Shown: in pieces, positions 42,201 to 45,200 of the stretch
How the letters are laid out: each line of letters starts with the position of its first letter
How positions within the stretch are numbered: the first letter of the stretch is position 1
Assembly: GCA_963556495.2 (NCBI GenBank)
Contig: OY747707.1
Location: 4,424,001 to 4,488,000 of the forward strand
Direction: 5' to 3'
From: Valencia hispanica
Lineage: Eukaryota > Chordata > Actinopteri > Cyprinodontiformes > Valenciidae
DNA: 64,000 nt
Notes under the pieces: generated by a model
Databases searched by the model: none
Seen by the model: only the letters and a program-made list of their open reading frames with translations
What the model was told of the DNA's origin: nothing
Program-made: the position numbers and the translations under genes

Positions 42201-45200
42201 CTACTAATTACATCGACTATAGAGCACCGTTCTCGTGAAATGATGTTAGGGAGGAACAAGTCGTTACTAAGGTTAGGGGGTGATTACTTTTTCACGCCAG
42301 TCCAGGTTGGTCTAGACTTGTAGTCAAGACAGCCTAAACCGAGACCAAGACACTACCAAGACCAAGACCAAGTCGAGACCAAGACCGATACCAAATCGAG
42401 ACGGGGGGAAAAAAACAGACTAGTGTTGAAGCTACGCAATAACTTGTATGAACACCAGCATACTATTACTTCAACTACAGGCAGTACAGAGACAGACCAT
42501 GTCGTGTGTGACTGAGCTCACTGTAAATGCTTTTGCAGACTGGGTGAGATCAACTATGTGTAGCAATTGTATGATGGCTGTTACTGCAGTAGACTTGTAG
42601 TCAAGACCGCTTAAACCGAGACCAAGACACTACCAAGACCAAGACCAAAGACTGTCAAGGCCGTGACAAGACCGAGACCAGATAAAAGTGGTCTCGAGAC
42701 CAAGTCTGGTCTTGAGACATACATCACTAGGTTGGTCTGGATAGATTTTCCCTTTATGCTGCTTTTAGTTTTTACTCTGCACTATAAAAAAAGGGGGCAG
42801 ACCACTTTAAATGGTTCGCATACAGAAAGCACAACTCACGGATGGGTTCGAGCGGCGAGCCCAGTTGGCTGTGGATCGACTCGAGCAGGTCGTAATCGTC
42901 GAAATTCAGAACAAACTCCTCAAAGTCCTCGAACCCGTCCACCAGGGAAAACGAACCCTGCCGCTCGTACAGCGTGGAGGTGCCCAAGCCCCTCTGGACG
43001 CTGCGCCGGCGCTCTGGTTCATGGTTGTCGGCCGTCAGCTTGTTCTCAGAAGACCCAACCGCTTGGTTCTCCCGTCCCTCAGGGTCTGTCATCTCCACAG
43101 CGGGTTCCTCCTCCTGTCCACCTCTCTATAGACAGATGCCCTGCTCATCCAGGGTTTCCCACTCCTGAACCCCGTTACTCTCCTTGGGTTCAAACGTAAA
43201 AAGCTGTGAGCTCAGCGTGAGAAAAGATGTGGCCTGTTTGTTGCTGAAAACATCCGTCCGGTTTCCAAAAGTATCACTGGATGCAAAACGCTGGATGGAG
43301 GGTTCTTATGAGGAAAACGTGAAGTTTAAGGCTGCACCTCTTCTGTAGAAAAACCTGAATGGAAACGAGTCTAAGCAGAGATATTGATGGGTGGCGTTTC
43401 CGCGGTGATAGAAGCCTGTTGGTGGAAGGACGATCCCTCCCTTTTTTAACGACATCCACATCGGATTGATTCCAGCCGCAGCTGGAAAAAACAGGGAAGA
43501 GCGGATCAGGAGAGGACAGCAGATGACCTTTATCTCCGCTGTGCCTCCACCACTTTTCCAAAACATGTGATGTGTCGGGTGGTAAGGATGAGTTTCGAAC
43601 AGCGGGCGGCTCCACCCATATTTAAAAAAGGAAATGTGTTGCCTCCTCAGAAAAAGATGTGTAAAAAGCTTTTAATTTGATTGTAGCAGCAAAACTACAC
43701 ATGAAGTAGTCCTTTAATTTGACTCCATTCATTAAAAAACACATATTAAGAAACTATTTATTTTTTTAGCACCATTACACTTGTCAAAATGAATGGCACC
43801 CTGTTGTTTATAATTTTTTACATCCCCCTTTTGCCAGAAGGACAGCCTTTAGGTTCCTTCCCACACAGAGAAAGGGATCTTTGCACAATCTCATAAGATC
43901 CAGCCCGGAATGGCCCTCTATGGGGCGCCGTTTATAAACTTACACGGTCAAAAAATTAACATAAATAATTTGGGTTATTTAGCCTGTCATAAAAGAAAAG
44001 AAAGAGGGGGTTCATTTTTCAAAGTTATATTTATTTGGGAGAATGTCAAATGGTCAGATGAAACCAAAATAGGAGTTTTGTGGTAAAAACTCTACTTGTC
44101 GTGTTTGGAGGAGAAAGAATGAAAGAGTTGCATCCAAAGAACACCATGCCTACTGTGAAGTACGGGGGTGGAAGCGTCATGCTTTGGGGCTGTTTTTCTG
44201 CAAAGGGACCAGGGCGAGTGAACGGGGGCCATGTATCGTGAGATTTTGTGTGTAAACCTCCTTCCATCAGCAAGGGCATTGAAGATGAAACATGGCTGGG
44301 TCTTTCAGCATGACAATGATTCCAAACACATCGCCCGGGTAACGGAGGAGTGGCTTCGTAAGAAGCATTTCGAGGTCCAACCCTATCTCAACCCTATAGA
44401 AAACCTGTGTTGCCTAGCAACAGCCCCAAAACATCCCAGCTCTAGAGAAGATCTGCATGGAGGAATGGGCCGAAATACCAGCTACAGTGTGTGAAAACCT
44501 GGTGAAGACCTACAGGAAACCTTTGACCTCTGTCTTTGCCAACAAAGGGTACATAAGAAAGTATTGAGATTAACTTTTGTTATTGACCAAATACTTATTT
44601 TCCACCATGATTTCCAAAACATTATTTAAAAATTAAACCATGTGATATACCTTTGATGAAAATTACAGGCCTCTCTCATCTTTTTACGTGGGAGAACTTG
44701 CACATCGGTGGCTGACTAAATACTGTTTTTGCCCCACTGTATGGAATATTAGTCTTTCAGCTGGGAGGTAGTTTATGTTTTATTTTTTACGTGCATCATT
44801 TCATGAGATAAGAACAAAAACAAGCAACTGATGATATACGGCAGGCATCTTCCCCGTGAAGCAGAGCGAGCCGCCTGCAGGTCCGTCGTTGTCAGAGTGC
44901 AGATGGCTCCTAAACAGTCAATGATTGCTCTGCTCTGGTTGATGCAGGAAAGGCCAGAGGCAGGGGAATCGACTCTAACGTCTGTTAATTATTGCCTCCT
45001 GACCACTCATTAGCGTTTTAATGGGTTTTGCTGTAGATTTTTACTCTCAGGGAATCGGTTAAAATACTCCAGGACAGCAGTGTTAGTGTAGTTGATCCCT
45101 ACTAGGGGGGGGGGGGGGCAGTCAGGAACCATCTTGTTCTGCAGCTTGTGATCAAGGTAAATTCTCTGGATTTACAAATTCGTCCTCCAAACATATAAAC

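Follow-up and report, generated by a model that had tools for sequence, protein, structure and literature searches.

The slc4a3 locus and its alternative first coding exon

The window analysed here, the whole 64,000-nucleotide stretch of Valencia hispanica DNA, carries slc4a3 on the minus strand of one contig (C9) of a genome that was searched over 1.29 Gb in 29 contigs. A splice-aware gene model guided by the Fundulus heteroclitus isoform P0002 places an alternative first coding exon and 16 shared exons in the window, and five upstream exons encode the N-terminus of the full-length (brain-type) form (Table 1; slashes mark splice junctions). The low end of the last in-window exon was set by hand at 63 in place of the script's 59, because GCG/GTGCGT makes a better donor and brings the exon back to phase 0. 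The last slc4a3 coding exon (LDCDEDSPNFDEDGRDEYNEIHMLV, locus L003) is found outside the window, about 10.1 kb past its position 1, and is preceded by an intron of about 10 kb, and the window therefore does not hold the complete gene. LINE reverse transcriptase-like open frames occupy slc4a3 introns at 19123-20006 and 28997-30163 on the minus strand, the latter within the alternative exon's own 21.7-kb intron, and satellite-like repeats are found at 3549-4648 and 5272-5866.

Table 1. Coordinates of slc4a3 features in the window
Feature	Position	Strand	Remark
Coding exon 1, full-length (brain-type) form, MATGGQTPDVDVLINLQQ	62500..62553	(-)	
Exon 2, full-length form	52977..53142	(-)	
Exon 3, full-length form	50842..51092	(-)	
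Exon 4, full-length form	50539..50726	(-)	
Exon 5, full-length form	47419..47639	(-)	start placed by eye at ttttgtcag/TTCTGC
In-frame TAG upstream of alternative ATG	43126..43128	(-)	sequence read
Alternative (cardiac-type) first coding exon	42840..43092	(-)	ATG, 84 codons + 1 base (phase 1)
Conserved acidic/aromatic core, residues 53-77 (GFEDFEEFVLNFDDYDLLESIHSQL)	42862..42936	(-)	alignment of 66 N-termini
Codons 69-70	42883-42888	(-)	codon 70 is the Leu/Trp site
5' splice site GTGAGT of alternative exon	42834..42839	(-)	sequence read
Exon 6, common acceptor and first shared exon, HRFEDNPGVRRHL...	25621..25766	(-)	
Exon 7, shared, start of Band_3_cyto domain	22998..23178	(-)	Pfam domain in Fundulus isoform P0002
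Remaining 14 shared coding exons in window	span 63..22804	(-)	
First five of the 14	22804-22669, 15735-15564, 14915-14810, 14718-14534, 13189-12970	(-)	
Next five of the 14	10077-9859, 9771-9623, 9547-9353, 6228-6037, 5139-5050	(-)	
Final four of the 14 in window	4975-4809, 3321-3068, 1172-1003, 236-63	(-)	

The alternative exon is situated inside the 21.7-kb intron, downstream of exon 5 by 4.3 kb and upstream of exon 6 by 17 kb, and hence between an exon that ends in DLDDMK and one that starts with HRxEDNPG. The in-frame TAG stands 12 codons ahead of its ATG at 43092 (context GTGGAGATGA), and the exon ends at 42840 with a C that is completed by exon 6 to a split Arg codon (C/GT) followed by HRFED. 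The acceptor of exon 6 reads ttttccag/GTCACAGG at 25766, the exon opening with GT CAC AGG. Exon 5 ends in the same phase (...GACATGAAA+A at 47419; ...DLDDMK+A, with A/GT giving Ser), and LDDMKSHRLEDNPG is the corresponding stretch of the human AE3 chain of known structure, its Ser being residue 271. The original prediction had described a first exon with its own ATG, an in-frame stop upstream, 84 residues and the phase required to reach exon 6 in frame through C+GT (Arg). Start codon, stop at 43128-43126, codon count, donor and acceptor all agree with this description, and the exon at 43092-42840 is confirmed.

Spliced from the alternative start, the model gives a cardiac-type protein of 1028 aa, whereas the long form has 1237 aa, to which exons 1-5 contribute 293 codons, the split codon one Ser and the shared exons 943 residues; predicted lengths had been about 1030 and about 1235. 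The five upstream exons total 880 nt, or 293 codons and one base, with the start of exon 5 placed by eye. Since the phase-1 donor joins exon 6, the 84 unique residues replace the 293-residue N-terminus and leave the cytoplasmic and membrane domains unchanged, so that a protein of about 1030 aa with both domains of the long form results (Pfam domains in P0002).

Among the 56 matches reported for this genome, slc4a3 is the sole locus matched by residues 1-86. At four other AE3-matching loci, with upstream stretches of as much as 20 kb scanned, no counterpart exon rose above background, and the best core-profile score there was 4.8 bits compared with 74.0 for the true exon; coverage in this comparison is limited, as at one locus (C19) an exon 6-like HRFEDVPGMRRHL was found and about 17 kb upstream covered with the exon 5 equivalent not found, and at the other three the equivalent exon was not located.

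Homologues of the alternative N-terminus

With the first 85 residues of the isoform as query, 41 of 112 candidate proteins scored at E<=10, the best at 1.8e-37. Forty of them have a named species, all ray-finned fishes, and one is without a name; the source annotation labels 32 of the 41 as isoforms, the remainder being whole-gene or hypothetical entries. The best match, isoform X3 of Fundulus heteroclitus (P0002; 1032 aa), has the same exon at 86% identity, but with species-level differences that fall mostly in residues 1-52. Public annotation of many fishes already includes the isoform as a prediction, and the arrangement is known in outline. Starting from the osteoglossid Scleropages, a second search (120 of 233 matches listed) added gar, sturgeons, lungfish, axolotl, the bird Phaenicophaeus and the catshark Scyliorhinus canicula among the matches listed, and a third search, which took the bird sequence as query, brought in lizards, a snake, opossum isoform X8 (P0127) and a whale gene model (P0128) that reads through the alternative exon. 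The conserved core is present in 76 of 165 proteins, window exon included, and 49 of the 76 begin with MTD, the window's own among them. Two core-bearing sequences, the window exon (P0001) and the nameless model P0079, have no junction pattern; in all 74 that have core and junction the residue before HRxED can be encoded by X/GT (R 50, C 13, G 6, S 5), which is a consistency check on the phase rather than independent proof of it.

A profile was constructed on 56 N-termini of ray-finned fishes, that of the window among them, and scored lungfish at 55.6, axolotl at 55.0, skink at 50.1, bird at 47.1, horned lizard at 46.2, catshark at 45.4, snake at 43.4, gecko at 43.3 and both opossum and whale at 36.7 bits, the N-termini of whale, skink and horned lizard having been hand-trimmed to the exon part before scoring. 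For each of these ten non-ray-finned N-termini, none of 1000 composition-matched shuffles reached the real score; the highest shuffle obtained 11.5 bits, and the best shuffles of opossum and whale 7.8 and 2.6. Shuffles thus score far below the real sequences, and composition alone is therefore not the explanation. The same profile gave at most 1.3 bits to 60 brain-type N-termini. The alternative N-terminus is homologous to mammalian cardiac-type N-termini, as represented by opossum and whale. Alignment with a mammalian N-terminus and with other fish slc4a3 loci had been put forward with the original prediction, and both comparisons bear it out, with the fish profile detecting the two mammals and the fish search yielding its 41 matches. 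Searched with the exon alone, the PDB returned no sequence match at E<=10, and Pfam returned no family.

No Danio sequence with a cardiac-type N-terminus was among the matches listed in the three protein searches (120 of 233 in one of them), which is not proof of loss. Cloning of the zebrafish gene by Shmukler in 2014 reportedly gave a single 1170-residue polypeptide, and the 5' end is said to be broken up by repeats; if so, zebrafish would be an exception. The loach Triplophysa rosa carries a cardiac-type N-terminus, and rows from carp and Sinocyclocheilus match over the exon 6 part only, among the matches listed in the Scleropages search. In the catfish Neoarius graeffei, isoform X2 (P0084) has the same junction preceded by a different short N-terminus from which the core is absent, representing either a second start or an annotation error.

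The conserved acidic/aromatic core

Conservation within the exon is concentrated in about 23 residues that form an acidic/aromatic core, and the acidic/aromatic stretch that had been singled out as a motif worth study coincides with this conserved part of the 66-row alignment. Compared with Fundulus, 31 of 32 positions are identical in residues 53-84 versus 41 of 52 in the rest of the exon; compared with the catshark, identity is 56% in residues 53-84 versus 13% in residues 1-52. Across the aligned N-termini (56 ray-finned and 10 others), all 66 share F60, D66, D68, L69, E71 and I73, and 65 of the 66 share E58, F64 and Y67, where "invariant" refers to the rows found: protein searches need shared 5-residue words, and a strongly diverged N-terminus would escape them. 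The proposed motif can be written approximately as E-D-[FL]-E-x-F-[VA]-[LF]-x-[FL]-[DE]-D-Y-D-L-[LW]-E-x-I-x-x-x-L. Position 70 is Leu in all 56 ray-finned rows and Trp in the other 10 (catshark, lungfish and tetrapods), from which outgroup reasoning suggests that Trp70 is ancestral and that Leu arose in ray-finned fishes.

The aligned rows, like those of the profile scoring and of the junction count, were chosen by a pattern that fixes several core positions, a circular selection, and all 41 matches of the first search carry this pattern. A pattern-free profile from 37 exons, run on all 165 proteins, recovered the same 76 at 12 bits or above, with the next protein at 1.5, and the pattern therefore hid no variants among these 165 proteins. 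Ten core-bearing rows stand outside the alignment, namely P0124 (a second gecko isoform), P0043 (a sturgeon model with other sequence upstream), the nameless P0079 and seven fused models (P0007, P0030, P0038, P0040, P0042, P0046 and P0047).

For the 84 residues, given an alignment of 50 sequences, AlphaFold2 returned a mean pLDDT of 57, with a helix at residues 65-76 at a pLDDT of about 70; a structure model of the whole isoform was unusable (mean pLDDT 37.7). A single amphipathic helix across the whole core was considered and rejected, as its hydrophobic moment at 100 degrees was equalled or exceeded by 74 to 97% of 5000 shuffles in four species. The highest local moment belongs to the last 11 residues, YDLLESIHSQL, where AlphaFold2 places the helix. 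A leader modelled at low confidence together with a short, very conserved acidic/aromatic segment would resemble a linear docking motif.

A putative cardiac AE3 of fishes

The two-start arrangement of AE3 has long been known in mammals, reportedly from the work of Linn in 1992 and Yannoukakos in 1994. According to the available parts of two sources, mammalian cardiac AE3 (cAE3) arises from a proximal promoter and has 73 unique residues in place of about the first 270 (PMC4664831, PMC1950688), and in the mouse the cardiac-specific first exon and its promoter lie between exons 6 and 7 in mouse numbering (PMC1950688). The fish exon is likewise an internal first exon, located in the intron that precedes the HRxED exon, uses the same junction, leads to a protein of about 1030 aa and shares the homologous N-terminal core of opossum (P0127) and whale (P0128), although it encodes 84 unique residues rather than 73 and has Leu at core position 70 where the two mammals have Trp. 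It is very probably the fish ortholog of the cAE3 first exon, providing an internal start that replaces the long-form N-terminus. A layout common to fish and mammals, as originally proposed, agrees with the match in position, phase, replaced segment and protein length, the fish promoter being putative; on sequence comparison this interpretation is supported and extends to the catshark and thereby to jawed vertebrates. The presence of the core in a shark, reptiles, a bird and mammals implies that the two-start arrangement is very old, and the layout, judged from these sequences, probably dates to the jawed-vertebrate ancestor. Transcription would begin within the intron between exons 5 and 6, from a putative separate promoter, and would yield an mRNA whose first coding exon, 43092-42840, is spliced through its phase-1 donor to exon 6. 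The form may be used in heart and perhaps in retina, as in mammals.

A different account of the exon makes it a cassette spliced in after exon 5 and ahead of exon 6, so that there would be one longer AE3 and no separate start. The frame is indeed open for 11 codons upstream of the ATG as far as the TAG, splicing of exon 5 to an AG at 43123-43122 would keep the frame (K-S-GQEEEPAVE-MTD), and 10 of the 76 core-bearing models hold both parts (the seven fused models named above with P0122, P0123 and P0128). However, the tract preceding this AG is poor in pyrimidines, the other 66 core-bearing sequences are without such a fusion, an MTD start is found in 49 of 76, and the mouse exon is described, in the available part of the source, as a cardiac-specific first exon with its own promoter (PMC1950688). 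Join points vary among the fused models, as expected of prediction artefacts, which these ten probably are, and the cassette reading is highly improbable. That the exon is a chance open reading frame or a decayed exon can be given practically no weight, being refuted by the conservation: 41 matches at E<=10 led by one at 1.8e-37, profile scores tested against shuffles, and core positions identical in 66 of 66 rows.

As to the core itself, acidic dileucine sorting signals follow the pattern [DE]xxxL[LI], and the D-D-Y-D-L-L of the window, whose Leu70 is found in 56 of the 66 rows, could be read as such a signal directing endocytosis or targeting in ray-finned fishes. This is unlikely, since Trp in the 10 rows from catshark, lungfish and tetrapods breaks the pattern despite conservation of the remaining core, which also makes sorting an unlikely ancestral function. 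By analogy with the acidic N-terminus of erythroid band 3, the core might instead dock glycolytic enzymes at the membrane. The two proteins belong to the same gene family, both have alternative N-termini, and in each an acidic stretch includes a conserved tyrosine. GAPDH, aldolase, phosphofructokinase and deoxyhaemoglobin are described as binding to the cytoplasmic domain of band 3, the glycolytic enzymes through its N-terminal region, and phosphorylation of the nearby Y8 and Y21 as reversing the binding (PMC8714990). However, the same text notes that the physiological relevance of the binding has been questioned (PMC8714990). Of 1000 shuffles of the AE1 N-terminus, 954 score equal to or higher than the real sequence, so that homology of the core to band 3 is rejected and the likeness is one of analogy; such docking is unlikely.

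A further proposal is that the core is a cAE3-specific docking motif, kept since the jawed-vertebrate ancestor while other parts of the exon drifted, which would be the reason for the second start and would link the exchanger with a specific partner in heart or retina, with the change from Trp to Leu marking the ray-finned fishes; the case for it is evenly balanced. In such a mechanism the core, modelled as disordered except for the helix at 65-76, would act as a short docking element that tethers a partner or regulates the exchanger while the pore stays unchanged. AE1 offers a parallel in that alternative promoters of its erythroid and kidney forms alter the cytoplasmic N-terminus alone, as stated in the available part of a review (PMC4664831), although the promoter is putative here and the similarity of the AE1 N-terminus to the fish exon is no better than that of shuffles. 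What follows functionally from having two AE3 N-termini is called unclear in that review (PMC4664831). With its roughly 23 residues, the conserved cardiac-type core, carried by many fishes, presents a defined target for tests of binding and mutation.

Among the titles and abstract openings listed in the literature searched, most subscription journals being outside its scope, there was no announcement of such an exon in fish, and the available portions of slc4 surveys in loach and spotted sea bass mention no fish cardiac form (PMC9746111, PMC7692064). In short QT syndrome, a loss-of-activity mutation of AE3 has been reported with zebrafish knockdown in support; in the portion of that study available, the slc4a3 morpholino is named e7i7 and the second frame of the check primer reads FEDNPG (PMC5700076). 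Both fall in the shared part of the gene, and therefore the knockdown should probably hit both AE3 forms.

A consensus scan of the 1 kb upstream of the exon gave no convincing set of promoter signatures. Two single-genome matches were spotted there after the fact, a CArG-like CCTATTTTGG at -981 and a second element, TAAAGGTCA, that fits a nuclear-receptor (ERR-type) half site and is placed at about -440 relative to the ATG (minus strand, about 43524-43532).
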